From: Ligustrum vulgare
Lineage: Eukaryota; Streptophyta; Magnoliopsida; Lamiales; Oleaceae
Direction: 5' to 3'
Length of the DNA: 64,000 nt
NCBI GenBank assembly: GCA_963555705.1
Contig: OY743174.1
Span: 23,841,108-23,905,107, forward strand
A model generated the notes under the pieces. It was not told the DNA's origin, searched no databases, and saw only the letters and a list, made by a program, of their open reading frames with translations. Shown in pieces: positions 3,201 through 63,991 of this stretch. Both the position numbers and the translations under genes were made by a program. Numbering within the stretch: the stretch's first letter is position 1; every line of letters begins with the position of its first letter.

Positions 3201-4113
3201 TGATGAGATCCGAAGTAGGAGACCAAAGGGGAAGTCGACCTATCGACAATGCGACAGTGATCTACGCGGGAAACGACACAAGTTTCATGTTGGAAGCGAG
3301 CCGAGAAGACAAAGGGATCGAACCGAATCAAAAGGGTCAAGGTTTGGTGACCAAGAGCACATTCACGGCCGTAAAACCAGTGTTCACGGCCGTAACAGCC
3401 CCTCAGGTCAAAAACAAGAATTTCAAGATTTTTATACTTACGGCCGTAAGAAAATAACTCACGACCGTAACTCCTTCTCTGGTGGAATTGAAGAACTTCA
3501 GCAATTTGATTCTTACGGCTGTGAGAGTTCTTGTTATGGCCGTAACTCATTAACAGAGAGTCACTTACGACCGTAAGTGACATTGTTACGGCCGTAATAT
3601 CTAATTTCCGGATTTCGCATTTTTTAATTTAATTCCCTTTTTTTTTTTTAATTATTTACTTCTATGTTTTGGGCCCAATTAGCGGCAATCCTAGTTTTTA
3701 GGTTAGTTTACATTATATTGCTTTGTTTTTCATTAGGAAACAACAACTTTGATATTATTGAATGAATGTGAGAATTTTCTCTCTCTCGAAAAGGAGGATT
3801 CCTTTTTCTTGTTCTTGAAGAACAATTCATAGAACTTATCAAATATTTTCTTGAATATTTGTGGCGTTCCAATCAGAAACTTATCAAGGAGATTGGGCAA
3901 ATCCTTGTGGCGTTTCGAAAGTCTTGGTTCTTTATTCCGCATCGTCAATTTATTACGTCGTGATTGTTGGGTCCAGGTCCTATCGTCAATTTTTATCTTT
4001 TCCAGTATTTTAATTATTGTGTTCTTGTGTTTCTTGGCTGAATCTGGATCTTTCCTATCTTTGTTTCGTTTAATTTCGCGTGTTCGTTGTGACCCCCTCC
4101 CGGGATCACATCA
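3201..4113 (+). repeat. 5' LTR of gypsy derivative
   Basis: 913 bp, TG...CA, aligned by eye along its whole length to the right copy with scattered substitutions and small indels, so the insertion is not recent. Carries the paired palindrome array at 3363-3597. Confidence 0.88.
3363..3597 (+). repeat. array of eight 12-bp palindromes in four 21-bp-spaced pairs (5' LTR)
   Basis: Variants of TTACGGCCGTAA start at 3363, 3384, 3438, 3459, 3513, 3534, 3565 and 3586. Within each pair the start-to-start distance is exactly 21 bp. Pairs start 75, 75 and 52 bp apart. The same spacing recurs in the other LTR and, nearly, in the right-hand gypsy element. Function unknown; two helical turns between sites would put both on one DNA face. 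Confidence 0.9.
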
Positions 4114-4115
4114 TC

Positions 4116-4127
4116 TGGTATCAGAGC
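4116..4127 (+). promoter_or_regulatory. primer binding site (tRNA-iMet)
   Basis: TGGTATCAGAGC, complementary to the 3' end of initiator methionine tRNA, two bases after the LTR end. Primes minus-strand DNA synthesis. Confidence 0.9.
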
Positions 4128-4501
4128 TTGGATCTAGATTCAGTTCTTGATCTTCGTACCAGTAAATTTTTTTCTTTATTTGATTCATATAAAATTCCAC
4201 AAAAAAATTCAAACCTGTTTATCTTAGTCAATTCTTACCCAAATCTAATTCCATTTTTTTCGCCATATTCGTAGTCAAATTGTCTAGTTGTTAAAAATAA
4301 ATCGAAAATTTCATTATTTTCCCGAATATTTCGAATCTGTCTCAATTTCCAAATTTTCCCGTTCTTACTCGTGTCTTATCGTGTCCTACCCTTACTTGAG
4401 TTCTTGGGCTGTTTCGAAGTGCTTGGAAGGGGGATTTTGAGTGACACACGTGCGATATATTTTTGCGAGGTGTATACCACTTATTTCTGTGAAGACTAAT
4501 A

Positions 4502-6225
4502 ATGTCTAGCAGACGGGATTCATCATCTTCATCAGTTGGGGACAACCAGAGAATTTACAGAAGGGAGCCAGCAGCTTCATCAACGAGCCACAATAAACGA
4601 CCGGAAGGTATGAATAGGGTGAATAACAATGTTGTAGGTGTGATGGAGACTTTACATGAGAAATTTGAGAAGTTGATGACTAGGATGGATAGGCAGGAAG
4701 AAACTATTAATAAGTTGCGTAGGGAACAAACTCATGCGGGTCCTAGAGCTAGGAGGGAAGACCGGAGAGATCATAGGGGGAGACATAATCAAAGGGTTGG
4801 ATATGGTTTTGATGATGAAGAGTTTTCGAGTGAAGGAAGTAGTGTCCAATCATCTGTGGCTAGTGTAAGGAGGAGAAGGGGTAGAGGAGATAGGGATGAA
4901 AGGGCGAATAATAGAAGAGATCGTTGTGATCGGGATGAAATAGATGATAATCTAGGTAAAATAAAAATGTCTATTCCACCTTTTCATGGGAGGAGTGATC
5001 CGGAGGCTTACCTAGATTGGGAGAAGAAGGTAGAGTTGATGTTTGATTGCCACAACTATTCGGAAGGAAAGAAGGTGAAGTTAGAGGTTGTTGAGTTCAC
5101 CGATTATGCCGTTAATTGGTGGGATCAGCTGGTGAAGGATCGAAGGAGGAATGGTGAGGGGCAATGGATACATGGCGTGAGATGAAAATCATAATGAGGA
5201 AGAGGTTTATCCCAAGCCACTATCATAGGGATATTTATCAAAGGTTGCAGGGGCTCACGCAAGGTTCTAGGAGTGTAGAGGAATATCATAGAGACATGGA
5301 GGTAGCCATGATTAGGGCCAACGTGGTGGAGGATCGGGAAGCTACAATGGCTAGATTTTTGAGTGGGCTGAACAGAGATATTGCAAACATTGTCGAGTTA
5401 CAACATTATGTGGAACTGGAAGACATGGTGCACATGGAAATGAAGGTGGAAAGGCAATTAAGGCGAAATGGGACATCTAAACAATCACCGGGAACTTATC
5501 CTACATCACAATCGAGGAAGGATCACAATGATGAGCACGTCCCGAAGGGAAAGGAGGAACTTACAACTAAAGGTAAAAATATTTCTGATTCTCAACCTAC
5601 TAGGGATAGAAATATTAAGTGTTTTAAGTGTTTGGGGTCGGGCCATATAGCATCACAGTATCCAAATAAGAAAGTAATGCTCTTGCGTGATAATGGTGAA
5701 ATTAGTTCTGATGATGAATTTAAGGGAATGCCTAAGTTAGTGGATGTTGGGGCTAGTAGTAGCGATGAAGAGGGGTTAACTTATGCGATGAAAGGGTCCC
5801 TTGTGAATAGACGTGTCCTAAATTCTCGAACTAAGATGGTTGAACTTGATGAACAGCGAGATAATCTTTTCCACACTAGGTGTTTGGTGGGGAAAAAGGT
5901 TTGTGGGATGGTAATTGACGGGGGAAGTTGTACTAATGTGGTTAGTACATTATTGGTGGAAAAGTTGGGATTGCCTAAGGTGAAACACCCCAACCCCTAT
6001 AAATTACAGTGGTTAATCGAGTCGGGAGAACTTAAGGTGAACAAGCAGGTTAATATTAAATTCACCATTGGGGGTTATAGAGATGAGGTGGTGTGTGATG
6101 TGGTCCCTATGCATGTTGAGCATATTTTATTAGGAATGTCATGGCAACATGATAGGAGAGTGGTGTATGATGGGTTCTTTCGTGAAGGGTGTAAAAAGGA
6201 TCATTCTTGCGCCGCTGACACCTAA
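4502..6225 (+). pseudogene. gag-protease of gypsy derivative, frameshifted
   Basis: Gag starts at 4502 with a polar, Arg-rich N-terminus, then the retrotransposon gag core (SIPPFHGRSDPEAYLDWE, about residues 155-175). A frameshift near 5160-5185 moves the frame into the second ORF (5164-6225), which continues the gag core (about residues 1-95), a zinc knuckle at 153-166, and the protease motif IDGGSCTN with Asp at about 252. The knuckle is C-x2-C-x4-H-x4-Y: its last Cys codon is TAT at 5659-5661. A further frameshift near 6175 ends the frame; the linker (SEKGELEREKKKK) continues in another frame to about 6451. No RT follows. Confidence 0.85.
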
Positions 6226-6583
6226 AGAGGTCCAAGAGGACCAATTGAAAATAAAGAGCGAGTTTGAGGGGAAAAATAAGAGCGTTGAGGCCACGACGTC
6301 AGAAAAAGGTGAGCTTGAGAGAGAAAAGAAAAAGAAAAGAGAGTCCACAACAAAAATGAGTCTCTTTGCATTTGCTAGCACATCCCTCCCTAGTTTGGCT
6401 AATTCTGTTTTGCAGGTACCACAATCAAATTACAAAACTAAGGCCAAATGAAAAATTAATTGTCGGACAGAACAACCCCAAAGGATGATGGATAGCAAAA
6501 ACATGAACAGGTCCCTCGAACCAACGAAAGCAGGAAATACATAAAGGAGAGGCCATATACAGATTCGAGGTCGAATCATTTCC

Positions 6584-6596
6584 AAGAAAGGGGGGA
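6584..6596 (+). promoter_or_regulatory. polypurine tract of gypsy derivative
   Basis: AAGAAAGGGGGGA directly before the right LTR; primes plus-strand synthesis. Confidence 0.85.
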
Positions 6597-7503
6597 TGAT
6601 GAGATCCGAAGTAGGAGACCAAAGGGGAAGTCGACCTATCGGCAATGCGACAGTGATCTACGCTGGAAACGGCACAAGTTTCATGTTGGAATCGAGCCGA
6701 GAAGACAAAGGGATCGAGTCGAATCAAAAGGGTCAAGGTTTGGTGACCAAGAGCACATTCACGGCCGTAAAACCAGTGTTCACGGTCGTAACAGCCCCTT
6801 GGGTCAAAAACAAGAATTTCAAGATTTTTATACTTATGGCCGTAAGAAAATAACTCACGGCTGTAACTCCTTCTCTGGTGGAATTGAAGAACTTCAGCAA
6901 TTTGATTCTTAAGGCCGTGAGAGTTCTTGTTACGGCCGTAACTCATTAACAGAGAGTCACTTACGGCCGTAAGTGACATTGTTACGGCCGTAACATCTAA
7001 TTTCCAGATTACGCATTTTTTAATTTAATTCCGTTTTTTTTAATTATTTACTTCTATGTTTTGGGCCCAATTAGTGGCAACCCTAGTTTTTACGTTAGTT
7101 TACATTATATTGCTTTATTTTTCATTAGGAAACAACAATTTTGATATTATTGAATGAATGTGAGAATTTTCTCTCTCTCGAAAAGGAAGATTCTTTTTTC
7201 TTGTTCTTGAAGAACAATTCATAGAACTTATCAAATATTTTCTTGAATATTTGTGGCGTTCCAATCAGAAACTTATCAAGGAGTTTGGCATCCCTTGTGG
7301 CGTTTCGAAAACCTCGGTTCTTCAATCCGCATCGTCAATTTATTGCGTCGTGATTGTTGGGTCCAAATCCTATCGTCAATTTTTATCTTTTCCAGTATTT
7401 TAATTATTGTATTCTTGTGTTTCTTGGATGAATTTGGATCTTTCCTATCTTTATTTCGTTTAATTCCGCGTGTTCGTTGTGACCCCCTCCCGGGATCACA
7501 TCA
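6597..7503 (+). repeat. 3' LTR of gypsy derivative
   Basis: 907 bp, same ends as the left LTR. Differences from it include several C/T changes within the palindromes and small indels near 7028 and 7285. Confidence 0.88.
6759..6993 (+). repeat. paired palindrome array (3' LTR)
   Basis: Motif starts 6759, 6780, 6834, 6855, 6909, 6930, 6961 and 6982: the same 21-bp pair spacing and 75/75/52 pair steps as in the left LTR, although individual motifs have mutated independently (for example TTAAGGCCGTGA at 6909). Confidence 0.9.
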
Positions 7504-7716
7504 TCGGGTGTTGAGGATAATCTAGATTTAGGTAGAAGATCGGGTGAGACTGACCTTGAGCTCCTCACCTTTAATAGTAAGATGAAGGAGCATATGATCG
7601 AGGCGGATATGAGGAAATTTAAGTTATTTGATGGGTACACAGCCCAAGTCCCAAAAAAGGATGATGTGTGTTACCCCTGTCGGGAACGGGAGATTGTGGT
7701 ATTTCACGTTAATTGA
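7504..7716 (+). pseudogene. 3' half of the ORF interrupted by the gypsy insertion
   Basis: 70 codons open from the first base after the right LTR to TGA at 7714. Contains EDNLDLGRRSGETDLELL, an amphipathic stretch around MIEADMRKFKLFDGY, and a C-x2-C pair in CYPCRERE. I do not recognise the family. It is in phase with the 43-codon ORF before the element. An LTR insertion should leave a 5-bp duplication, so the exact phase match may be chance. Confidence 0.35.
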
Positions 7717-29772: not shown

Positions 29773-29999
29773 ATTTTTTTTTCTAAAGTAAACTTTTGTA
29801 AAATATGTGATTAAAATGTAAAGAATATTTTTGAGTTTATGTATATATTATTTTGTTGGTAAAATATGTGGTTGAAAATGAGTTTTTGAATATTTAATAT
29901 CAAACATGCTCTATATTTTTCGATTTTTCTATTACCCAATTATATTATTATTATTAAAGTAATATTTGAATATGAGTTCTTCTTTCTTTTATCACTTAG

Positions 30000-30034
30000 G
30001 AGCCGTGTGAGATGAAAGTCTCATGCACGATTTT
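30000..30034 (+). other. group II intron domain V-like fragment
   Basis: GAGCCGTG-TGAGA-TGAAAG-TCTCA-TG-CACG forms the domain V hairpin with GAAA-type loop known from organellar group II introns; one pairing base is changed (CACGA). Surrounding sequence (to about 30125) may be organellar too. Most likely a nuclear insertion of plastid or mitochondrial DNA. Confidence 0.6.
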
Positions 30035-30151
30035 TAGACGAAAAAAAGATTCTGATTCTTAAGAACTCAACGTGCCTTTTCCCCTCGAATCATACAAAGA
30101 AAGAAGGGAATCCTGTTGAGTTCATTAGAACAAATATTTATTCACTTAATT

Positions 30152-34399: not shown

Positions 34400-34596
34400 T
34401 GTAAAGAAGGAATATGAATTGAATGGGAAAGATAGTATCATTGATTCTGAATAGAGTGTACATATACAAGAGATGACTTACTGTACAAGTCTAGATCCTA
34501 GAATTAAGTAATTTGCTAAGGAACATAAAAGGTAACTAAATATGTACAGAATAATACTACCAAAAATAGAAGATGCTAAAGAATATTTTCTCCACA
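34400..34596 (-). repeat. 3' LTR of Copia
   Basis: 197 bp, identical by eye to the 5' LTR. Short for a Copia LTR, so promoter, polyadenylation and integration signals are tightly packed. Confidence 0.96.
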
Positions 34597-34610
34597 CTCC
34601 CCCTCAAGTT
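34597..34610 (-). promoter_or_regulatory. polypurine tract of Copia
   Basis: Minus strand AACTTGAGGGGGAG abutting the 3' LTR. Confidence 0.9.
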
Positions 34611-37600
34611 GGAGAGTGGATATCCAATACTCCCAACTTGCGAATAATGGAAGCAAAAGTTTCTTTACCCAATGCTTTGGTCAAGACATCTGCCAGTTGA
34701 TGTCCCGAGCTTACAAATCTTGTAGCAATAGAGCCGTCTTGTATTTTATCCCTTATATAGTGACAATCCATTTCAATGTGCCTGGTTCGCTCATGGAAGA
34801 CTGGGTTTGCTGCAATGTGAAGTGCTGCTTTATTGTCGCAGTATAGTAAAGCAGGTTCATGATGTACTATTCCCAAATCTCCAAGCAGATATCGCAACCA
34901 AGTCAATTCACAGCAGGCTCCTGTCATTGCTCGATATTCTGCCTCAGCTGATGAAAGTGATACCGTTTTCTGGCGTTTTGATCTCCAAGAAATCAATGAA
35001 GGTCCAAGAAATACACAGTAGCCTGTAGTGGACCTTCTAGTGAGCGGACAACCTGCCCAATCTGAATCACAATATGCTCTCAATTTGAAATCATTATCAG
35101 AACTAAAGAATAGACCTTGACCAGGGGCGTTTTTGAGATAACGCACAACTCTAAGTGCTGCCTCCATATGGGCCTTTCTTGGCTGATGCATAAACCGACT
35201 CAGCACATGAACTGCATAAGTAATATCTGGTCTCGAAACTGTCAAATATATTAGCCTTCCAACTAATCTCCTATAACGACCTTGATCCTTGAGCAAGTCA
35301 CTCTTATCAGATAACTTCAATCCTCGGTCCATAGGTGTATCAATTGGAGACGCGCCCAATAGACCTGCATCCTCAATAATTTCTAATGCATACTTGCGTT
35401 GAGAAATAAAGATCCCATTTCCAGAGGAAGAAACCTCAATGCCAAGGAAATACTTTAAATCACCAAGATCTTTAATGTGGAATTGACTATGCAGAAATCT
35501 CTTTGTTGCAGCAATGCTTTGAGGATCATTTCCAGTAATCAAGATATCATCAACATATATTAACAAAATAGTGAATAACTTGCCTTGTTTTCTGGTGAAT
35601 AGAGAATAATCAGCCCGTGATTGCACATAGCCAGCAGAATGAATAGCCTCTGAGAATTTCGCAAACCATTGACGAGAGGCTTGCTTTAGGCCATAAAGTG
35701 ATTTGTGGAGACGACATACCAAGTTTTCCTCCCCCTGTCGCCGAAGCCCTGGCGGCGGAGACATGTAGATCTCCTCATGTAAGTCGCCATGGAGAAAGGC
35801 GTTGTTTACATCCATTTGATGAATTGACCAGCCCCGGGCAGCAGCCATAGAGAGTAGGCAGCGCACTGTGATTATTTTTGCGGTGGGTGAAAAGGTATCT
35901 TGATAATCAATGCCTTCGAGCTGAGTGAAACCCTTAGCTACCAATCGGGCTTTGTAACGATCAATAGACCCATCCGACCGATGCTTAACTTTATAGACCC
36001 AACGACAACCAATTGGTACCTTGCCAACCGGAAGTGGAGTAAGAGACCAAGTACCATTAGCCTGAAGTGCCTTCAGTTCTGAATGCATTGCCGCTTGCCA
36101 CTCAGGATGAGCTGCGGCCTCCGAATAAGAACGTGGTTCCGTGACAGCACTGATTTGAGCAACAAAATGTCTGTATGCAGGCTTATATCTGTGATAAGAA
36201 ACAAATTTGGCTAATGGATAACGCGTACCTTTTTCCAAATCTGGAGTGAGAGGAGACAATTGGTCAGAGTAAACGTGTGAGCAGATATAGTCGGTCAACT
36301 TGGTAGGAGGAGCGGTGTGTCGACTGGAGCGACGGAGTGGTGGGACTGGTTGAATGGAGGGAAGTGGTACAGGGGGTGGAGAAGTGTGTTCCACTGAAGG
36401 TTCCTGTGGCACTGGTAAAGATGACGCCAGAGATTGTTGTGAATTTTCAACAATGGGAGGTGGGGATTGAATTGATGGATCGATGGGTAAGGAAGTAGGT
36501 TTGGGGCGTCGAATATATGTGCGAAGGGTGGGAGGTGGCGTTGACATCGGTGCTGGAGGAGATGGAGAGGTTGATAGTGTTGGTTGTGTATCTGGTGTGT
36601 CATCAGTAGGAGAGTCAAAAGAAAAGTCTAAAGATGAAGGAATGGGGATTGGGCCTGAATCTTGGGCTTGTGAAGGCTCCACAGAATTGGGTTGAAGAGA
36701 GGTGTAGGGGAAAATATTTTCATGAAATTTGACGTCTCGACTGATAAAAATTTTATTTGTCGATTGATCAAATAATTTATAGCCTTTCTGTCCAGCGGGA
36801 TAGCCGATGAAGATTGATGGAGTTGCACGATAGTCAAATTTGTGTGATGTATGAACATTGGTGGCATAGGTTAAGCATCCAAAAACGCGTAAATGAGAGT
36901 AAGATGGTGGTTTTGAGTAAAGTAATTCATATGGGGTTTTGAGAGATAGTATTGGTGAGGGCAACCGATTAATGATGTGGACAGCTGTGAGAGCGCATTC
37001 TCCCCAAAATTGAGTGGGAAGTCGAGCATGGAATTTTAATGCTCGAGCAACTTGAAGAATGTGGCGATGTTTACGTTCCACAACCCCATTTTGTTGGGGC
37101 GTGTAAACACAAGAATGCTGAAATATGGTACCATTGTCTTGAAAAAATGAACGAAGTGTGAGAAACTCCCCGCCATTGTCACTTCGAAAAGTTTTAATGC
37201 GAGACTCAAATTGTGTGAAAGCATAGTTAAAAAATCGTTTTATAAGTGTTTGTGTCTCATCCTTTTGCCGCATTAAAAATATCCAGGTAAAACGTGTATA
37301 ATCATCGACAATGGTGAGAAAGTAATGGGAACCAGAAAGAGATGGGCGTCTATAACGACCCCAAATATCACAATGAATAATGTCGAAAGGTTTTGTAGAA
37401 GAAATTACACTAGTACTGAATGGTAAACGACTTTGTTTAGATAAATGGCATATATGACAAGCATTATTGTACTGAATGGAGAAATTCAAGAAATTCTTAG
37501 CTATGAAACTTAAGCGGGAAGGTGAAACATGGCCTAAACGACTGTGCCATAGGTCAGTGGATGAGATGGTGAGATTGCAGGCTGGTTGGTCTGTGGGCGA

Positions 37601-39184
37601 GGAGTTGTCCATCAAACATTTGTCTGTTGCTAGTGCCACTAGATAGTACAGGCCGTCACGACGCTTACCCAAACCAATCGTCCTCCTCGTAGCCAGATCC
37701 TGCAAAATACACCAATGAGGATAAAAGGTCACTGAACAGTTCAAATTTTCTGTCAATCGACTAACAGACATCAAATTAACTTTGAATGAAGGTACAGACA
37801 ACACGTCATGCAAATAATAAATAGGATTCAGAGGTACGGATCCCTTTGCAGCAATATTCACTTTTTCTCCACTAGGTAGTGATACAGGGGGCAACGAACA
37901 ATTTTTAGCTTTATGCAACAATTTTGATGACGAAGTGATGTGGTCCGTCGCCCCGCTATCAATAATCCAATTGTGAGAAGTGACTTTAGATAAACCTGGT
38001 TTTGTTACTGCATTAGCCTTTGAACCAGAACTCTCTTCCTGTTTGTTAAGGAGTGACAAAAGTTGTTCGAGTTGGGCCTCTGACAACGAAACAGTGGGTC
38101 TTCCTTCATCAGTGTTCAGCACTTCAGATACTTGGTTAGCCGCAAAAAATTTTTTGTGCTGATTTGGATTTGGGCCAGAATTTAATTTGGCTTTGGAATA
38201 GCTCGGTGGATAACCATTCAATTGAAAACATTTTTGGACCCAATGGCCCATCTCTCCACAATAGGAACAATTGGGCCGTCCTCTCCCTGATCCAGATCTA
38301 CGCCGATCTTGCCTGTGATTGGGCCGATTCTCTGAGGATTGATATGAGCGATGTCCTCCGGCCAAAAAATTTGACTTCCCCTCGACTGAAGAGTCTGTCT
38401 TTACATAATGGCGCACCGCCATAGCCGCGCTCGCACCAAGTTCAGCCGAGGAATGCGTTGCGCTGAGAAGTCTCTGCTTTTCCTCTTGTGAAATTGAAGA
38501 ATAAGCTTGACGAACCGAAGGCAGAGGATTAATGAGGAGTATTTGGCCACGAATTGCACTGTAGCTCTCATTCAGACCCATCAAAAACTGCATTAATTTC
38601 TGTTGATCTGCCTGTGCTCCATATGCTGTGTCCGAGTATGAGGCCAATTCATCCCACAATCCCTTTAATCGAGTGTAGTAAGCAGAGACAGAGAGTTGCT
38701 CTTGTCTAAGATAAGCAATATCTCGCTGAATCTCGAAGATGCGGGGTGCATTACTTTGAGAGAAACGTTCACGAAGATCTTCCCAAACATCGTGAGCAGT
38801 GGTATAATAGATCACGCTATCAGCAATTTCTGGACTGAGGGTATTGATGATCCAAGAATGTACCATGTCGTTGCATCGAGACCAAGTGGCATATCCTCCA
38901 GGATCAGTTTCTTCCGAAGGGGCCTTAATAGAACCGTTGATGAAACCGAGCTTATTCTTTGAATTTAAGGCTAAAGTCATAGCCCTTTTCCAGCCAGTGT
39001 AATTATCTCCATTCAGTAATTTGGATACCAGAACTAATCCTGGATGATCCGAGTGATGGGTGAAGTATGGATTTGAGATGTCAGATTTTGAGGAATCTGA
39101 TGTGAGTTCCAACATGGATGAACCAGAAGTGGTAATGGTCTTACCGGAAGCAGTAAGTGTCGGAGGAACATCATCGTTGGCCAT
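34604..39184 (-). CDS. Copia gag-pol polyprotein (intact)
   Basis: 1526 aa in one frame. In order: gag (UBN2-type, about 50-240); zinc knuckle C306-C309-H314-C319; protease DSGA with catalytic D409; integrase with H547, H552, C576, C579 and the triad D606, D669, E703; a Pro/Ser-rich linker (about 840-960); reverse transcriptase with D1125 and YVDD (D1212, D1213); RNase H with D1373, E1414, D1450. Every catalytic residue I can place is present, and no stop or frameshift breaks it. It starts at the first ATG, 85 nt after the 5' LTR, and ends overlapping the purine tract. The polyprotein is cleaved by its own protease and assembles virus-like particles in the cytoplasm for reverse transcription and integration. 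Confidence 0.97.
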   Translation of the reverse strand: MANDDVPPTLTASGKTITTSGSSMLELTSDSSKSDISNPYFTHHSDHPGLVLVSKLLNGDNYTGWKRAMTLALNSKNKLGFINGSIKAPSEETDPGGYATWSRCNDMVHSWIINTLSPEIADSVIYYTTAHDVWEDLRERFSQSNAPRIFEIQRDIAYLRQEQLSVSAYYTRLKGLWDELASYSDTAYGAQADQQKLMQFLMGLNESYSAIRGQILLINPLPSVRQAYSSISQEEKQRLLSATHSSAELGASAAMAVRHYVKTDSSVEGKSNFLAGGHRSYQSSENRPNHRQDRRRSGSGRGRPNCSYCGEMGHWVQKCFQLNGYPPSYSKAKLNSGPNPNQHKKFFAANQVSEVLNTDEGRPTVSLSEAQLEQLLSLLNKQEESSGSKANAVTKPGLSKVTSHNWIIDSGATDHITSSSKLLHKAKNCSLPPVSLPSGEKVNIAAKGSVPLNPIYYLHDVLSVPSFKVNLMSVSRLTENLNCSVTFYPHWCILQDLATRRTIGLGKRRDGLYYLVALATDKCLMDNSSPTDQPACNLTISSTDLWHSRLGHVSPSRLSFIAKNFLNFSIQYNNACHICHLSKQSRLPFSTSVISSTKPFDIIHCDIWGRYRRPSLSGSHYFLTIVDDYTRFTWIFLMRQKDETQTLIKRFFNYAFTQFESRIKTFRSDNGGEFLTLRSFFQDNGTIFQHSCVYTPQQNGVVERKHRHILQVARALKFHARLPTQFWGECALTAVHIINRLPSPILSLKTPYELLYSKPPSYSHLRVFGCLTYATNVHTSHKFDYRATPSIFIGYPAGQKGYKLFDQSTNKIFISRDVKFHENIFPYTSLQPNSVEPSQAQDSGPIPIPSSLDFSFDSPTDDTPDTQPTLSTSPSPPAPMSTPPPTLRTYIRRPKPTSLPIDPSIQSPPPIVENSQQSLASSLPVPQEPSVEHTSPPPVPLPSIQPVPPLRRSSRHTAPPTKLTDYICSHVYSDQLSPLTPDLEKGTRYPLAKFVSYHRYKPAYRHFVAQISAVTEPRSYSEAAAHPEWQAAMHSELKALQANGTWSLTPLPVGKVPIGCRWVYKVKHRSDGSIDRYKARLVAKGFTQLEGIDYQDTFSPTAKIITVRCLLSMAAARGWSIHQMDVNNAFLHGDLHEEIYMSPPPGLRRQGEENLVCRLHKSLYGLKQASRQWFAKFSEAIHSAGYVQSRADYSLFTRKQGKLFTILLIYVDDILITGNDPQSIAATKRFLHSQFHIKDLGDLKYFLGIEVSSSGNGIFISQRKYALEIIEDAGLLGASPIDTPMDRGLKLSDKSDLLKDQGRYRRLVGRLIYLTVSRPDITYAVHVLSRFMHQPRKAHMEAALRVVRYLKNAPGQGLFFSSDNDFKLRAYCDSDWAGCPLTRRSTTGYCVFLGPSLISWRSKRQKTVSLSSAEAEYRAMTGACCELTWLRYLLGDLGIVHHEPALLYCDNKAALHIAANPVFHERTRHIEMDCHYIRDKIQDGSIATRFVSSGHQLADVLTKALGKETFASIIRKLGVLDIHSPT

Positions 39185-39256
39185 GGTGACTTAGAAGAAC
39201 TGAGGGTATACTGTACGAGAGATTAGAGTGCAGTGGTAAGTCAGGATTTCAACCTC

Positions 39257-39268
39257 GCTCTGATACCA
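39257..39268 (-). promoter_or_regulatory. primer binding site of Copia (tRNA-iMet)
   Basis: Minus strand TGGTATCAGAGC, directly next to the 5' LTR end. Confidence 0.93.
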
Positions 39269-39465
39269 TGTAAAGAAGGAATATGAATTGAATGGGAAAG
39301 ATAGTATCATTGATTCTGAATAGAGTGTACATATACAAGAGATGACTTACTGTACAAGTCTAGATCCTAGAATTAAGTAATTTGCTAAGGAACATAAAAG
39401 GTAACTAAATATGTACAGAATAATACTACCAAAAATAGAAGATGCTAAAGAATATTTTCTCCACA
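39269..39465 (-). repeat. 5' LTR of Copia
   Basis: 197 bp; same sequence as 34400-34596. The right TSD TATAT follows at 39466-39470. Confidence 0.96.
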
Positions 39466-49165: not shown

Positions 49166-49498
49166 TGACCTGTGACTTGCCTCATCTCTGAGACTCACCA
49201 TGGTGACATCACAGCACCCATCTCTTCACCACCACCACCACCACAAAAAACTCACAAAAAACCATAAACACCACCAAATGAGAAAAACTAACATCAAACC
49301 AAGCACAGATTGTTGGGTAACAGACAAATCTCAACCTCTAATACCACCACACCACAACCTCCGGTCACTACTACACACCAAAAAGAAGAGGAGAAGAGGA
49401 AATTAATTGACATTAAAGAAACCAGAGGTTGGACGAGCATCAACATAAAAAAACTAGAGTCTATTGAACTCGAATAATGAAAATCAAGTCAGTGGGTG
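49166..49498. other. noncoding, CCA-rich
   Basis: A short frame with a poly-His run (49200-49406) is low complexity and not accepted as a gene. The last five bases GGGTG are the left TSD of the hybrid retroelement. Confidence 0.4.
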
Positions 49499-50182
49499 TG
49501 TAATACCGCCTTTCATTTTCATACCTTTAAAATTTCACGTCATATTTATGTTAACGTTATTTGAAATTTAAAATTTAATTAATTTTACGTCAATGGTTTG
49601 AAATTTGTTTTGCAGTGGAAGGACTTGGACACCGTATCGCTCAATGTGCCAATTAGAGAATTATAAATTTTTCACGTGCAATGTTATGTAATTAATTAAT
49701 TTTATTGCCTAGGCATGCTAATTTCTATTTATTGTGTTAAGTTGAAACTTTATTGGCGATTGGAAAGTAAATATGACTTATGGACTAAATTATATCCTTA
49801 GAGAGAATTGAGGGACCAATTCGCAAATCATCGAAAGTTTATATCTAACCCTACCCTAATATCCTCTCTCACGCTCTCTCTATTCGGTCTCTCTCTCTCA
49901 CCGATCCCTCACGCCGCTCTCGCCTCGCTCTCGGACTCGCTCTCCCTCATCTCTCAGTCCCGTCCGTCTCTCACCTCACGCAGCGGCCACCCCAGCCGCC
50001 AACAACCTCACACCACCGGTACCTCTCACCCGACGCCTCTCTGTCTCGACTGCCTCTCTCGCCTCACTCTCGGCCGAACCCAACTCCACCGACCACGGCC
50101 ACCGTCCTCACGGTAAACTCCCCTGAACACACAATCCGCACTCACAATTGGCACCCAACCCGAACACGCGCACACACATATG

Positions 50183-50184
<2 letters not shown>

Positions 50185-50241
<57 letters not shown>
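50185..50241. repeat. (AT)n microsatellite
   Basis: About 28 AT units inside the long LTR. Confidence 0.95.
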
Positions 50242-50246
<5 letters not shown>

Positions 50247-51291
50247 AATATATACTGTAATTGTTGATTCTATGTATGTACATGAATGCATATGCTAGTT
50301 ATGAGTAATTTTCAGATTTCTAAAATATGTAGATTTCGAATTTTAAAGGTTAATTTTGAGATTTGAATAATGTTTATATATATGTATGTATAGATGTATA
50401 TATGTATGTGTGTTTGTTCAATTTCAGATCGATGGATTTCAGATTTTCGATAATGAAAGATTTACATATATAAATTTCAGATTTTTATATATGTGTATAA
50501 ATTTCGATCCAAAGTTTTAGTTAAGTTTCAGATTTTGATGTTGTTTAGATTTTTTTTTAAAATCATAGATTGTCAAATTGAGAATTTGGTTTAGAACCTT
50601 GATGAATTATTGAAATTTTAATTGTAATTTTATAACGTTAGGTTAAGCTATGTAAATTTGAATTTTAGTTTGAATTAAAAGGTGGAATGACTTTCTAATG
50701 TGCATCGAAATTTATTATTTGTTTCGAATAGGATGTTAATGTAATGTTTTGGGAATTGGAAGCATGAAAGACTCTTTCTTGTTTTATGTGCTTTAATCTA
50801 AACGTAAGGTCACATTGTGAATTAAAAGTTATACTTATTAATGAATGTGAACAACTAGGATATTTGGTACATTGACGTCACGGGCATCCGAGACTTTTCC
50901 ACTTGCAAATTCAGAAACGGTAAATGCTAAGGACGTCATGTAAGTAAACTTCCCCCTATTTTCATAGAAGTTGAATGTAAATGTGAAAGTTATGTGTAAA
51001 TGACTGTCGTGCAACTTACTTGCTTTGATGAATTGCATTTACATTATGAAAGCATATGTTATTGAGAAGAATGTTTAAGCATGCACATTATCATGTCATT
51101 GCATCATCAAGCATGCATTGACATCGAAATTTGGAAGTCAAATGTTTTAAATGAAAGAAATGTGTCAAAGTGCAAGTTTGTTCAAAAGTTATGTATCCCA
51201 AGTTTTTAAAGAATGAATGGGTGTGCTTCTAGTTCATGAAAGATGCGAGTGGGAAATGGGGCGCGGGGGACCGGCGTACCCGAATGTAATG

Positions 51292-51411
51292 AACCGCTTT
51301 GCGGTGGGAAAGTGAATGTTACACCGCTTTGCGGTGGGAAAGTGAATGTTACACCGCTTCGCGGTGGGAAAGTGAATGTTAAACCGCTTTGCGGTGGAAA
51401 TGCGCATGTTA
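51292..51411. repeat. four tandem 30-bp repeats with a perfect hairpin
   Basis: Units start at 51292, 51322, 51352 and 51382. Each opens with ACCGC-TTT-GCGGT (5-bp stem, 3-nt loop) followed by GGGAAAGTGAATGTTA. Unit 3 has TTC in the loop; unit 4 is diverged in its second half. Confidence 0.93.
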
Positions 51412-52203
51412 ATCTGGTTCCAAATAAGTAATTGCCCACTGTATTCTGATTGACTAGAAGTTACATCAAGTGAGCTCACGATGGAAATGAAGTGAAAGTT
51501 TTGAAATGTTAAGTGAAAGTTCGAAATGTTGAAAGTTTTTGAAAGGTTAAAGTGAATGGGGATACATATTTCAAAGTTAAAGCATTCATGTCATAAGCAT
51601 GCATTCATGCATACAGTTTACTTACTGAGCTTTAGTTCACCCCAATCCCTCCCCAACATTTCAGGTGATGAAAGTTAGGTGATCCGAGGAGAACATTTGG
51701 CGGCTGACTCGGACAGTACCCACTGTCGACATTATTTAATAAAGTTAAATTTACTAAAGTTATCATTTGAATTTATTCATTAATTCATTATTTTGATAAC
51801 TGTTTGGTTGAGATTAGTTTAAATTAGTTATGAAATTTCTAATATTGGTTATATTATCACTTATTGTATTTAATTGAAGCTTATTGATGAAAAATGTTGT
51901 GTTGAGGAGTTTGGGGATTGAATTTGAAATAGTGTGGTGATGTGGGAGTTTGAAGTAGAATTGGATTGTATGTTGAGTATTGGATTTTTATTTGAGTTGA
52001 GTTTTATTTTGTAAAATGGTTTTGATGTCCCTCTACAGGTTGGTTAAGTCCAATTTATAGAGGAGATTCTGCCGAAATTTTGTAAGAAATTTATAATAGA
52101 TAAATGAATATTTTGATGTGTAAACGATTTAATTCCGCATTTAATGTGAATGGAAGTTAACACGCCTAGGTTTTAGACTCGTAAATTTGGGGTCTTACAT
52201 TAA

Positions 52204-52216
52204 TGGTATCAGAGCC
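52204..52216 (+). promoter_or_regulatory. primer binding site (tRNA-iMet) of hybrid element
   Basis: TGGTATCAGAGCC, four bases after the long LTR. Both gypsy and Cassandra elements use this primer, so it is also the junction between the two parts. Confidence 0.88.
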
Positions 52217-52351
52217 GGCCGTCAGCCGGAAAATCGGGAACTAAGTGCTACGCCATAGGGCGGGAGCCACCTCTAGAATCCCAACGCCTGGCAACAGATC
52301 CTCAGATGGATTAAGCACGACGAGGACGTCGCGAGTCTAACGGGGGGTGAT

Positions 52352-52629
52352 TGTAACACCCCAGGCCAGGAAAGTTTAAAAGAAACGATAGGTACTACTC
52401 ATACCAACAAGGTGCACCTTCTTTTCCGAAAGTCCATCGTTAGAAACTCCAAAGTTAAGCGTGCTTGGCTTGGAGCAATTCTGGGATGGGTGACCTCCTG
52501 GGAAGTTTTCTCGGGGAGCGTGCGAGTGAGGACAAAGCATGCTGAAAAGACTCGTGTTGGTACAATGGGGACAGTACGCCATCATTTAACGACCGGGACA
52601 ACCCGTTAAGTGGGACCCGGGTCGTTACA
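52352..52629 (+). repeat. Cassandra-type 3' LTR carrying a 5S rRNA-derived sequence
   Basis: 278 bp, TGTAACACCCC...GGGTCGTTACA, preceded by the purine tract CGGGGGGTGAT. About 120 bp inside it are clearly 5S rRNA-like, which is the defining trait of Cassandra terminal-repeat retrotransposons in miniature. Confidence 0.88.
52391..52510 (+). other. 5S rRNA-like segment within Cassandra LTR (not a 5S gene)
   Basis: Matches plant 5S rRNA in order: CATACCA, GTGCACC, CCATC, then AGTTAAGCGTGCTTGG (A-box region) and GGATGGGTGACCTCCTGGGA (C box). The length of about 120 nt equals 5S rRNA. The first half is diverged; the internal Pol III promoter boxes are best conserved. Confidence 0.88.
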
Positions 52630-52634
52630 GGGTG

Positions 52635-52904
52635 GGTGGCTACGACGAGCACTTCTCCATCTAATGTCGACAAGGGCGCCTTCGATGCTGTAAATGATGC
52701 CGACGAGTATGGCAGTTACTGGGAATTTCTTTGGCTGTTGGTGAATGAATTTAATTTGGGGTGGGGGTGGATACATTGTCGGTTGGGGGTGGGTGTAGAG
52801 GTGGGGTGGTTAATTTAATTTAATATTATTATTAATATTAAAAATTTTAATTATCAACTGATTTTTGTATAATTAAACATTAAACCTGATTTTTTATTTT
52901 CAAC

Positions 52905-59133: not shown

Positions 59134-60010
59134 TGATGCAAACCACGTAGCAATTGTAGCTACGCAACCCACAAATTATTGGAATCGACCCAAGAACGCC
59201 AAAGAATCACGATTTAGAGATTGATTCAAATTAATTGAACCAAGCAACCAACACAATCAATTGATATGTTGACCTCTTGATCACAATGAAAATAAATCTC
59301 ACCCAAGATTTGAACAAACAAGAATTAAACTCGCAAGTTCGGATTTTATTCAATGAAGAATAAGGATTGTGAAAGCAAATTGCCTCTCAATATAATATCA
59401 AAGTTGTCTCTGAATAATGAAAATTACATCCCTATAAATAGGGTCAAAACTAGGTTTAAGAGTTGTAATTAAACAAGGAAACAACTATCTAAAAATAAGG
59501 AAATAAAAAACCCTAAAATTCACGCGTATTCGATTTTACGGCCGTGACTAATTTTCTTACGGCCGTAAACTTGTTTCTGATTCACTCTTACGGCCGTGAC
59601 AATATGGCTTACGGCCGTAAATCCAAAAGTCCAATATTCCAGTTTTATGCAGTGACTCTCTTACGGCCGTGATATTAACCTTTACGGCCGTAAGTCCAAT
59701 TTCTTCGAAAATTCAGTTTTAAGCAGTATCAAGGTTACGGCCGTGAGAGTTATGAATTACGGCCGTAATTCCTGAAATTTGGCAATCTTCTTCGACAGCT
59801 TGAATGAGGTTGATCCACTCGTCGTTTTGGCTCGGCCCGAACATGGAACTTGCTTCTTTCGATGACACGAACATTGTTTTGGCCATTGTTTCTTGAACTA
59901 ACTTGTCCATTGCTTCCTTGGCCCTTCTTGTCTGCAATCGAGTCATCGGTCCTCCTCTGATCTTCAACGGATCTTTGTGTGGGCTTGTATCCGTGGTCTG
60001 GATCACATCA
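59134..60010 (-). repeat. 3' LTR of right-hand gypsy element
   Basis: 877 bp. A minus-strand TATA box CCTATTTATAGG lies near 59430-59445. The purine tract (GAGGGAGGGGA) is at 60011-60022. The pol frame runs about 290 bp into this LTR before stopping. Confidence 0.8.
59536..59768 (-). repeat. paired palindrome array in right-hand gypsy LTR
   Basis: TTACGGCCGTAA-type motifs start at 59536, 59557, 59588, 59609, 59661, 59682, 59735 and 59757. Pair spacing is 21, 21, 21 and 22 bp; pair steps are 52, 73 and 74, the same order as the other LTRs when read on the element's strand. The text between the motifs is largely different from the left element. Confidence 0.9.
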
Positions 60011-62763
60011 TCCCCTCCCTCTTCGAAAGGATTCGACCTCGACTCTGTACCTGCATCAAACGGAGATAGATCAGAAACATTAAATGATGCCGAAACATTA
60101 TACTCACCAGGAAGATCGAGTTTATAGGCATTATTGTTGATCCTTTCGATCACTTGGAATGGACCATCTCCTCGCGGTTGTAACTTTGACTTGCGCTGTT
60201 CTGGAAACCGCTCCTTTCTCAAATGTAACCAAACCCAATCACCGGGTTCAAAAATGATGCCCTTTCTTCCTTTGTTAGCCTGCGAAGCATAATGTTCATT
60301 TTTCTTTTCAATCGCCAACCTCACCTTGTCGTGGAGTGTTTTAACCATCTCAGCCTTTTTCTTGCCATCTAAACTACTACGTTCATTCACAGGTAAAGGA
60401 ATTAAATCCAATGGTGTTAGCGGATTAAAACCATAAACAATTTCAAATGGTGAATAAGAATTAGTAGAATGTATAGCCCTATTATATGCAAATTCAATAA
60501 ATGGTAAACACTCTTCCCAATTTTTCAGATTTTTATTGATTATCGTGCGCAACAATTGAATCATTGTCCTGTTTACTACCTCGGTTTGTCCATCGGTCTG
60601 TGGGTGACAAGTTGTAGAGAAAAGTAGTTTTGTACATAATTTGTTCCACAAGACCCTCCAAAAATGACTAAGGAATTTAACATCCCTATCCGAGACAATA
60701 CTTTTAGGCACCCCATGTAAGCGCACGACTTCCTTAAAGAAAATTTCAGCTATGTTTGTAGCATCGTCAGTTTTGTGGCATGGTATGAAATGAGCCATTT
60801 TACTAAAGCGATCTACTACCACAAAAATCGAATCTCGACCCTTCTTAGTCCTAGGCAATCCTAAAATAAAATTCATAACGATATCGACCCAAGGTTCACT
60901 AGGGACGGGTAAAGGCATATATAATCCATGGGGTTTAATCCTAGATTTAGCCTTTTTACAAGTAATGCATCTATTACAAACCCGAACCACCTCAATTTTC
61001 ATTTTAGGCCAATAGAAATGTTCACTTAGGATTTCAATGGTCTTTTTAACCCCAAAATGACCCATTAAGCCTCCACTATGGGCCTCTCTCACAAGTAACT
61101 CTCTCATTGTACACCTAGGAACACACAATTTATTTTCTCGAAATAAATAATCATCATGCTTAAAGAACCTATCCACAGCCCCCTTACCACATGATTCATA
61201 AATATTAGAAAAGTCCAGATCATTAGCATACATGTCCTTAATGTATTCAAATCCAAGCAATTTAGAGTTTAAAGAATTTAAAAGAACATACCTTCGAGAC
61301 AATGCATCTGCCACCACATTTTCCTTACCTTGTTTGTACCGGATGACATAGGGAAATGTTTCGATGAATTCTACCAACCTTGCATGTCCCTTACTTAGCT
61401 TAGCTTGACCCCTCAAATGCTTCAAGGATTCATGATCAGTGTGTATCACGAACTCCCGTGGCCACAAGTAATGTTGCCATGTTTCCAAAGCGCGCACAAG
61501 TGAGTATAACTCCTTGTCGTATGTGGGATAATTAAGTGCAGCCCCTTTTAGTTTTTCACTAAAATAGGCGATTGGCCTTTGATCCTGCATTAAAACAGCT
61601 CCAATGCCTAGCCCTGAGGCATCACATTCAATCTCAAAAGCCTTGTCAAAGTTAGGAAGTGATAAAACCGGTGCTTCACATAACATATTTTTGATAGTAT
61701 CAAATGCATGCTCCTGTTCTACACCCCATTTAAACCCTACACTCTTTTTGACAATTTCTGTGAGTGGTGCGGCAATCGTGCTAAAATTTTTAACAAAGCG
61801 CCTATAAAAACTAGCCAAGCCATGAAAACTCCTAACCCCAGTTATGCTTTTAGGTGTTGGCCACTCTTTAATAGCTTTGATTTTCTCTTCATCTACTTCT
61901 ATCCCTTTAGCACTAACCACATAACCAAGAAACACAACTTTTTCCATGCAAAAATCACACTTTTTAAAGTTAGCAAAAAGTTGCTCTTGTCTTAAAACCA
62001 CAAGCACACACCTAACATGCTCCACATGTTCATTCAAAGTTTTACTGTATATCAAGATATCATCGAAGTAAACTACAACGAATTTACCTATAAATGCACG
62101 TAAAACATGATTCATTAAACGCATAAATGTGCTAGGTGCATTAGTAAGTCCAAAAGGCATTACTAACCATTCATACAGGCCATACTTAGTTTTAAATGCA
62201 GTTTTCCACTCATCTCCTTCTTTCATTCGAATTTGATGATAACCACTCTTAAGGTCAATTTTACTAAATATGCTAGAGCCATGCAATTCATCCAACATAT
62301 CATCTAACCTAGGAATAGGATGACGATACTTTACCGTTATGTTGTTGATGGCTCTACAATCAACACACATTCTCCATGTCCCGTCCTTCTTCGGCACAAG
62401 TAACACGGGTACGGCACATGGACTCATGCTTTCCCTTATGTACCCCTTACTCATTAATTCCTCCACTTGCTTTTGAAGCTCCTTCGTCTCCTCGGGATTA
62501 CTCCTATAAGCTGGACGGTTTGGAATGACTGCTCCAGGTATAAAGTCAATTTGATGTTCAATACCTCGAATGGGTGGTAACCCACTAGGTATGTCATCTG
62601 GAAACACATCCTCGAATTCCTGCAATAAAGAAATAGCCAAACTAGGGAGGGATTTGTTAGTTTCATCAAATGCAAGGAATGATTCCTTGTACAGCAGAAG
62701 GACCATCGGTCGTTCTTCCATGAATGCCTTTTTTATTTCACTCCTTTTTGCGTAGAAACTCAT
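59719..62763 (-). CDS. gypsy pol polyprotein: RT, RNase H, integrase
   Basis: 1014 codons, open throughout. RT with D170 (KIDLKSGY) and YFDD (D234, D235); RNase H with D381, E418, D443, D486; integrase zinc domain ([10 protein letters not shown]...CNRCITC, about 562-602) and core with D692 and E728. The first catalytic Asp of the core, expected in the 'MDF' position, is Asn ([10 protein letters not shown]631), so integration is probably dead. The C-terminal [13 protein letters not shown] block and a short tail lie in the 3' LTR, ending inside the palindrome array. The frame is also open upstream of the chosen Met through a linker with three near-repeats of the type [10 protein letters not shown] (about 62780-62930), so the true product is a gag-pol fusion, not a protein starting at 62763. 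Confidence 0.88.
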
Positions 62764-63077
62764 TTTTCTTTCTTTTCTGGCACTCTTCGCTCCCTCTCCT
62801 TTTTCTGAGGTATGTACCCCAACACTCTTTTTTTCTCTCGCCTCTCCTTTTTCTGGAGTCGTGGCTCCAACTCTCTTTTCCTCTCCTTTTTCTGAGGTCG
62901 TGGCCTCAACTCTCTTTCTCTCATTTTCCTTTACTCTTTTTCTTCATCATTTTTCAGTTTTATTTGATCTTCATACACTTGTGATGGTGTCAATGGTGCA
63001 AGTGTAATGGTTTTTCCCCCTTTGATAAAGCTATACCTATTTTTATACCCATCATGCGTGACCTTCCTATCATATTG

Positions 63078-63991
63078 CTAAGGCCTACCTAACAAAATGT
63101 GCCCTGCATGCATAGGTACCACATCACACATAACTTCATCCACATAGCTACCAATAGAAAAATTCACCAACACCCTCCTATTCACCTTAATTTCTCCACT
63201 ATCATTTAACCATTGAAGCCTATAAGGTTTAGGATGTTTTAACAGAGGTAATCCTAATTTTTCAACAAGTATAGTACTAGCGACGTTAGTGCAACTACCA
63301 CCATCAATAATCATACTACATACCTTGTTATTAATGCGACATCGTGTATGGAATATGTTCTCCCGTTGTTGTTCCAAATCATCCGTGTTGACTTGAGCAC
63401 TAAGAGCTCTCCTTGCCACTAATAACTCGCCATGCTCCCCGGATAACACATCCTCATCATCACATACTTCCTCCAACGCCGGCATATCGCTATAATCCTC
63501 TTCCTCACTATCACTCTCCATGGCTCCATCCTTTCGCACAAGTATCACTCGCCTATTAGGACATTGAGATGCCACATGACCTCTCCCCAAACATTTGAAG
63601 CATTGAATGTCTCTACTCCTAGATGGTTGAGGTTCCCCTTTAGGTACGAATTTATTAGCTTGTTCCTCCTTCCCCTTTGGTGCCTCAAATTTCCCTTTTG
63701 GTGCTTCAAACTTCCCTTTAGAAACAGTCACATCTCCTTACTTTCCCACTTCGGCTTCCAAGAAGAATTAGAACCAGATGGATACCTTGCTGTCCCCTTT
63801 TTCTTTATTTGTTTCTCCACCTTTATAGCCATGTGCAACATATCCTCCATCTCTAAATAATGTTGTAGTTCAACCACATTAGCTATATCCCTATTCAACC
63901 CATTCAAAAATCGAGCCATCGTAGCCTCCCTATCCTCTTCTACATTGGCTCTAATCATCAACATCTCCATCTCCTTATGATAATCCTCCAC
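63078..63991 (-). pseudogene. gag-protease of right-hand gypsy element, frameshifted
   Basis: The first part (63991-63728) is gag core ([20 protein letters not shown]). A one-base shift at about 63730 moves to the second frame (63731-63078) with a tandem KGKFEAP repeat, an intact zinc knuckle CFKCLGRGHVASQC and the protease motif IDGGSCTN. The frame then ends at TAG (63080-63078) where related elements have Trp, a nonsense change. The gag N-terminus lies outside the window. Confidence 0.85.

Follow-up and report, generated by a model that had tools for sequence, protein, structure and literature searches.

A hybrid retroelement with two unrelated long terminal repeats (LTRs), a gypsy-type LTR of a family designated LTR_A on the left and a Cassandra LTR on the right, was found in a 64,000-nt window of the Ligustrum vulgare genome (contig OY743174.1 of GCA_963555705.1). 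The window corresponded to C7:23841108-23905107 of the genome searched, which comprised 1.385 Gb in 51 contigs (C-numbers denote contigs). The element was 3,131 nt long (49499-52629), carried GGGTG at each outer end on direct reading, and was integrated once, as a single unit. Its two parts were joined at the initiator-Met primer binding site, which is common to both families. The hybrid very probably arose by strand transfer between molecules during reverse transcription at this common site, with both templates in one particle, and the resulting hybrid complementary DNA (cDNA) would have been integrated once. The arrangement had been proposed in a sequence-only reading of the window, and it was confirmed by direct reading, blastn, and empty sites. 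Its parts were as follows.

49300..49498, no strand: left flank including the left GGGTG, a low-copy repeat with 20 genome matches
49494..49498, + strand: left 5-bp target duplication GGGTG, single in four empty sites
49499..52199, + strand: left LTR, a complete LTR_A of the Ty3/gypsy family, 2,701 nt, TGTAATACC...GGTCTTACA
52200..52203, + strand: spacer TTAA between LTR_A and the primer site; TT probably from LTR_A (native TTTT) and AA probably from Cassandra (native AA)
52204..52215, + strand: initiator-Met primer binding site TGGTATCAGAGC, common to both families
52216..52351, + strand: Cassandra internal region, with the purine tract GGGGGGTG at 52342-52349
52352..52629, + strand: right LTR, a complete Cassandra LTR, 278 nt, TGTAACACCCC...GGGTCGTTACA
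52391..52523, + strand: 5S rRNA-like core with promoter boxes; Rfam 5S score below the gathering score
52453-52464 and 52483-52495, + strand: A box and C box, inside the right LTR
52630..52634, + strand: right target duplication GGGTG, read directly
52635..52834, no strand: right flank, the same low-copy repeat, adjoining the left flank at each of the four empty sites

Single integration and the parental families

At four paralogous sites (C22:32768387, C14:17549224, C11:35075082, and C14:17317947), the left flank matched to its last base and continued directly into the right flank, with GGGTG once and no element. Therefore, a single event brought in the whole hybrid and made a normal 5-bp duplication. 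A chance repeat of GGGTG was unlikely by probability (~0.001-0.002 for a 5-mer match between these flanks), and was then settled by the empty sites. None of the three contrary signs named in the sequence-only reading was found: the empty sites contained GGGTG, the sequences bordering the 2.7-kb LTR (GGGTG and TTAAT) did not match as a target duplication of its own, and no remains of a Cassandra 5′ LTR with LTR_A nested in it were present in the window. A real nested LTR_A was found at C11:58079000-58084500, where the Cassandra LTR was split around the insert.

These observations bear on two other origins. Separate LTR_A and Cassandra insertions might have been fused when the stretch from one primer site to the other was deleted, a loss that the common 12 bases could have guided. 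Such a deletion would leave unrelated outer flanks, whereas one site with one GGGTG was seen in the four paralogues, and a chimera on C17 likewise has matching ends. The empty sites thus already contradict this origin, which is extremely improbable. An assembly error, or a solo LTR_A that was nested by chance beside a Cassandra, could be imagined because both families are repetitive. However, the exact duplication around the whole, the empty paralogues, the further junctions at the same base, and the different appearance of the true nested LTR_A on C11 leave it hardly any probability.

The Cassandra internal part, including the primer site, was 148 nt long and had no coding region. Both published Cassandra promoter boxes, A and C, as defined in PMC7215508, were present exactly in the right LTR, 18 nt apart, in agreement with the earlier assignment of this LTR. 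The Rfam 5S model was aligned over its whole length, but its 20.8 bits (E 0.52) did not reach the gathering score of 38, and 5S was absent from the Rfam matches of the window at the gathering threshold. When the window was searched by blastn (word 7, E 1e-3), the right LTR had no other match, including in the left LTR, and no remains of a second Cassandra LTR were found anywhere in the window. The whole element was not classed as Cassandra, since only the right one of the two Cassandra LTRs of such an element was present. A genome search with 52204-52640 gave 3,191 candidates, of which 40 were scored; with the window itself set aside, the full-length matches were 92-97% identical. The native spacer between the Cassandra LTR and the primer site was AA in loci L005 and L008, and also in L007, behind an inverted LTR.

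Four full-length LTR_A members (C18, C10, C2, and C19) were read. Each contained two LTRs, a polypurine tract, the spacer TTTT, the primer site (with one altered base in one copy), and GGGGTAAGGAAT ahead of the 3′ LTR, and was bordered by a 5-bp target duplication found by eye (TTCTC, GTTTG, GTAGC, and TCTTT, respectively). The 2.7-kb unit is therefore a real LTR. The internal regions (3.7-4.1 kb) of the four copies contained no frame longer than 127 aa, and gag, protease, reverse transcriptase (RT), RNaseH, and integrase were absent from them as open frames. A 127-aa piece in an LTR_A copy matched the C-terminal domain of Ty3-type integrase (PF24626, E 7.6e-24). Thus, the LTR_A family belongs to Ty3/gypsy, as the sequence-only reading had stated, and the four copies are non-autonomous. 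Its idea of a coding helper was not borne out by these four copies; coding relatives were located behind or beside LTR_A on C9 and C17, and the coding helper would be such a relative. These relatives presumably belong to the Tekay/Del lineage. The full-length copy on C19 (L027, C19:8937300-8947200) contained an LTR_A 99% identical to that of the window over the last 1.6 kb, and its unlike 5′ part may indicate that exchange took place inside the LTR.

When the termini were compared, LTR_A and Cassandra started with TGTAATACC and TGTAACACC, respectively, and ended with TCTTACA or TGTTACA and with CGTTACA, respectively, and the primer sites were identical. The hybrid had the exact ends of its parents. 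A query composed of the 3′-terminal 780 nt of the left LTR, the spacer, the primer site, and the Cassandra internal region gave 6,994 candidates, of which 40 were scored. Among those scored, the window, C17:47046601, and C15:29086315 matched from end to end, so that the same junction proposed for a search elsewhere was recovered. The remaining scored matches were LTR copies, and those passing the LTR stopped at query base 795-796 or earlier. These two bases close the primer site, at whose last base the LTR_A likeness ends, which places the join where it had been proposed.

Recurrence of joins at the Cassandra primer site

A pattern composed of the Cassandra primer site and the start of the internal region was searched genome-wide, and the base four positions upstream was scored as C (canonical) or not C. 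The pattern matched 362 junctions, 310 with the canonical C and 52 without it. Among the 100 canonical junctions that headed the list, all but four had CAAA before the primer site. Thirty-seven of the 52 non-canonical junctions were inspected, which left out C14:46372898, C15:20228238, C15:28957131, C15:53530787, C16:33248008, C16:44350569, C17:4541241, C17:53049606, C18:26053875, C18:30777313, C20:29871056, C20:44974816, C21:4071120, C21:23891187, and C23:1287805. A Cassandra LTR with small changes was found in 12 of the 37 (10 by an abutting BLAST match, L045 and L061 by eye), and the upstream sequence was other than a Cassandra LTR in 25, as follows.

LTR_A end, 11 of 37: L038, L041, L044, L047, L049, the window, C15:29086440, C15:27850572, C16:44318776, C17, and C19 (the calls for L049 and C16 rest on 80 nt or less)
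LTR_A plus U6, 1 of 37: L046
LTR_B, a second LTR family, 3 of 37: L043, L052, and L065
Other LTR-like ends, 3 of 37: L037, L053, and L066
Chromovirus integrase gene, 1 of 37: L058
LTR_A internal region, 2 of 37: C22 and C16:44321527
LTR_A interior upstream, 1 of 37: L060
Remaining three of 37: L048 (chromovirus gag further upstream), L050, and L059

The chimeras in the window, on C17, and on C15 had LTR_A copies that were mutually 76-81% alike, each nearest to a different one of the C18, C2, and C10 members, whereas the Cassandra LTRs of the three chimeras were 91-94% alike. These differences indicate that the donors differed and that the three events were independent. The partner choice is wider than one family. 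Over 338 of 338 nt, the spacer and the primer site among them, one LTR_B chimera had identical counterparts at five further positions; two of the five were fetched, and both ran on into a different internal region. LTR_B showed no frame longer than 70 aa within 1.5 kb of the primer site.

Among the 152 junctions listed (the 52 non-canonical and 100 of the 310 canonical ones), CA directly preceded the primer site in one (L052, AACA), which belonged to LTR_B with the spacer ACA, and no Copia-type end was seen. A young Copia element of the window (34400-39465, - strand), with identical 197-nt LTRs, an open frame of 1,528 aa, and TATAT on both sides, has the same primer site as Cassandra directly at its LTR and is a useful control family.

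The C17 chimera was a composite with ACTTA on both sides (5/5). An inverted LTR_A came first, then, likewise inverted, the 3′ portion of a gypsy element whose RNaseH-integrase frame was open and which gave a weak chromodomain match, and then LTR_A, TTTT, the primer site, the Cassandra internal region, and the Cassandra LTR. Its two LTR_A copies were 99.7% identical. The C15 composite contained a Cassandra LTR, AA, the primer site, the LTR_A internal region, and LTR_A, followed by TTAA, the primer site, the Cassandra internal region, and a Cassandra LTR. Its outer Cassandra LTRs were 97.5% identical and its flanks were ACACA and ACACC (4/5). Both composites had at first been read as lacking a duplication, and the matching bases appeared in a wider stretch. 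The C5 chimera (L049) had outer Cassandra LTRs, an internal region, 40 nt of an LTR_A end, and the flanks GAAAT and GAAAA (4/5). Further mosaics of LTR_A and Cassandra were found at C16, C19, and C15:27850572.

Reciprocal joins, with a Cassandra LTR, the primer site, and the LTR_A leader, were also present. The corresponding pattern gave 17 matches, 10 of them with the AA spacer, and a Cassandra LTR was located upstream in six of these 10 (two matched in part). The other four were three LTR-like ends that matched neither family and one Cassandra LTR end that formed a palindrome next to an LTR_A in inverted orientation. This palindrome (L074, C1:55693600-55694063), which has an LTR_A leader on its other side, looks as if a strand had folded back. 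A Cassandra with an inverted 5′ LTR was observed at L034:1972-2679 (C4:59993971-59994678) with ATATT on both sides (5/5), and seems to be a further abnormal product that was inserted as one unit.

Three joins shared AAATGGT, which consists of the Cassandra spacer and the start of the primer site, between Cassandra and the foreign template. On C9, a gypsy frame that was open over 1,351 aa was cut at ...GPE and followed by Cassandra; gag, protease, and RT were assigned by Pfam in the first 872 aa, and integrase by 98% identity to C17. The join in the integrase gene reads CCAGAAATGGTATCAG, and its C17 counterpart reads CCAGAAATGGTGCAG. On C22, the LTR_A leader TTTGAAAATGGTTCGG, as in C18, turned into TTTGAAAATGGTATCAG. 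At C3:74878974, LTR_A and TTTT were followed by U6 small nuclear RNA (RF00026, 91.5 bits, E 1.7e-23) and then by Cassandra at GAGAAATGGT, where the native plant U6 presumably continues as AAATGGTCC. Joins of this kind, between sense RNAs, are expected from a reverse transcriptase that changes template. The joins at L048 and L060 carried AAATGGT, and it was absent at L050 and L059, where no LTR end was located upstream.

The spacer TTAA was found in two of the 11 LTR_A chimeras and in one of 636 native LTR_A starts (p 0.0008), or in one of 10 chimeras when the window, the starting point, was set aside (p 0.03). Genome-wide, TTAA followed LTR_A at three places, the two chimeras and an ordinary start at C12:41140222, whereas TTTT was found at 635; TTAA was accordingly rejected as the native LTR_A spacer. 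C16:44321527 also reads TTAA, and was outside the count of LTR ends because its upstream sequence is the LTR_A internal region. The TTAA spacer suggests that the Cassandra AA was by then part of the minus strand in these two chimeras, the window and C15.

Proposed strand transfer and its alternatives

The following course is proposed for the strand transfer. Cassandra RNA and LTR_A-type (chromovirus) RNA would be reverse transcribed within one particle. The Cassandra minus-strand DNA would reach its own primer site and here probably run two bases on, into the AA spacer. It would then pair with the primer-site copy that ends the LTR_A plus-strand strong-stop DNA in place of its own, and extension of both strands would give LTR_A, primer site, Cassandra internal region, and Cassandra LTR. 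The termini, alike at both ends (TGTAA[CT]ACC ... TTACA), would allow insertion by an integrase accepting both, and the alike ends of the two families could thus serve one integrase.

Template exchange at the primer site, one of two origins suggested in the sequence-only reading, fits best. The other was a later conversion, by which a plain Cassandra with GGGTG would have had its 5′ LTR replaced by LTR_A through short-homology repair at TGTAA and the primer site. Under conversion, neither the duplication nor the empty sites would be altered, and short identical stretches exist at both LTR starts and at the primer site. However, it would require homologies of ~9 and 12 bases around an unlike 2.7-kb insert, repeated elsewhere with different donors, and it accounts neither for the composites on C17, C15, and C3 nor for the U6, integrase-gene, and inverted composites. 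Conversion is therefore improbable. Alternatively, the hybrid would already have existed as RNA, the read-through or spliced product of both elements in genomic tandem, and would then have been copied normally; the tandem mosaics of both families on C15 and C16 give this origin some basis. Normal copying gives two identical LTRs, whereas those of the window copy share nothing. The LTR_A donors differ among the chimeras, and several insertions with one identical hybrid junction and LTR were not found among the 37 junctions inspected. This origin is very improbable.

Several points weigh against strand transfer between co-packaged templates. Fifteen of the 52 junctions were unread, and the partners extended beyond LTR_A to the three LTR_B chimeras and the three other LTR-like ends. 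The C19 LTR described above was left out of the donor comparison. The outer ends were resolved on both sides in four of the 11 LTR_A chimeras (the window, C17, C15:29086440, and C5), and two of these matched at only four of five bases, for which the random chance of at least four matching bases is ~0.016. The U6 join is known from one locus, and the chromodomain match of the coding relatives (E 0.0012) falls short of the Pfam cut-off. Co-packaging is deduced from genomic sequence, and conversion of an integrated Cassandra's LTR keeps a small probability for the window copy.

Since unlike LTRs without a common R region would not easily repeat the cycle under the general model of reverse transcription (PMC1950507 and PMC12786077), each hybrid would be a first-generation insertion. 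The window copy is thus probably an end product rather than the functional hybrid that had been envisaged.

In soybean, LTR swapping between a helper and its dependent element was reportedly described for an autonomous and non-autonomous pair by Du et al. in 2010. The Triticeae template-switching complexes (Sabot and Schulman 2007, PMC1950507) were attributed to single integration by matching target duplications and to intermolecular template switching in reverse transcription. The window hybrid resembles them in the matching duplication around the whole, GGGTG, and, probably, in template switching. However, the Triticeae complexes consist of two related elements with a common inner LTR and similar outer LTRs, and the exchange point is R, whereas the window hybrid has unrelated families, unlike outer LTRs, no inner LTR, and exchange at the primer site. 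The C15 composite, with similar outer LTRs and an inner LTR, is nearer to the Triticeae type. When compared with the Cassandra terminal-repeat retrotransposon in miniature (TRIM) of PMC7215508 and PMC10853983, the window hybrid agrees in its right LTR with the promoter boxes, in its primer site and internal region, and in its lack of coding, and its left LTR is not Cassandra. The recombinant insertions of Onsen (Sanchez et al. 2017, PMC5668417) likewise involve co-packaged transcripts that recombine at strand transfers, within members of one family, whereas a non-coding TRIM, an unrelated gypsy family, and U6 are involved here. For the Cereba/Quinta pair of einkorn, the partner criteria in PMC11302176 were the same primer site and the same LTR termini; that pair has half of the LTR in common and Quinta codes for Gag, whereas Cassandra and LTR_A have only the primer site and terminal bases in common.

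The window also contained an Rfam group II intron match (29998-30125, + strand, 44.5 bits), which is perhaps organelle-derived DNA, and gypsy elements at 59719-63737 (- strand) and 3201-7509. One of these two has an open pol frame with no chromodomain listed, and the other has gag-protease only, between LTR-like repeats that are 94% identical.

Implications for the Cassandra helper

PMC10886601 states that there is no indication of the autonomous family responsible for Cassandra, and in PMC4717578 a related coding element was lacking for 278 of 289 TRIM subfamilies. The molecules fused to Cassandra, where identified, were members of LTR_A, coding relatives of gypsy type whose chromodomain match was weak, U6, and LTR_B. 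Cassandra is likely to have been reverse transcribed together with chromovirus templates, and a chromovirus is probably a usual helper of Cassandra. A claim that it is the sole helper goes beyond the evidence, and the helper function itself is suggested by the joins. On a more tentative and less probable reading, chromovirus particles would admit a whole class of RNA, the small transcripts of RNA polymerase III, and Cassandra RNA, U6, and the initiator tRNA primer would meet in them. If so, the 5S promoter would be the ticket of Cassandra into the particle, and the mosaics would be a fossil record of packaging.

No description of such Cassandra hybrids was found in searches limited to open-licence papers. 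Primer-site hybrids name the molecules that were reverse transcribed together, and no LTR likeness is needed for this. Because the junction pattern is simple, other plant genomes can be scanned with it, and the question of the Cassandra helper becomes directly testable.

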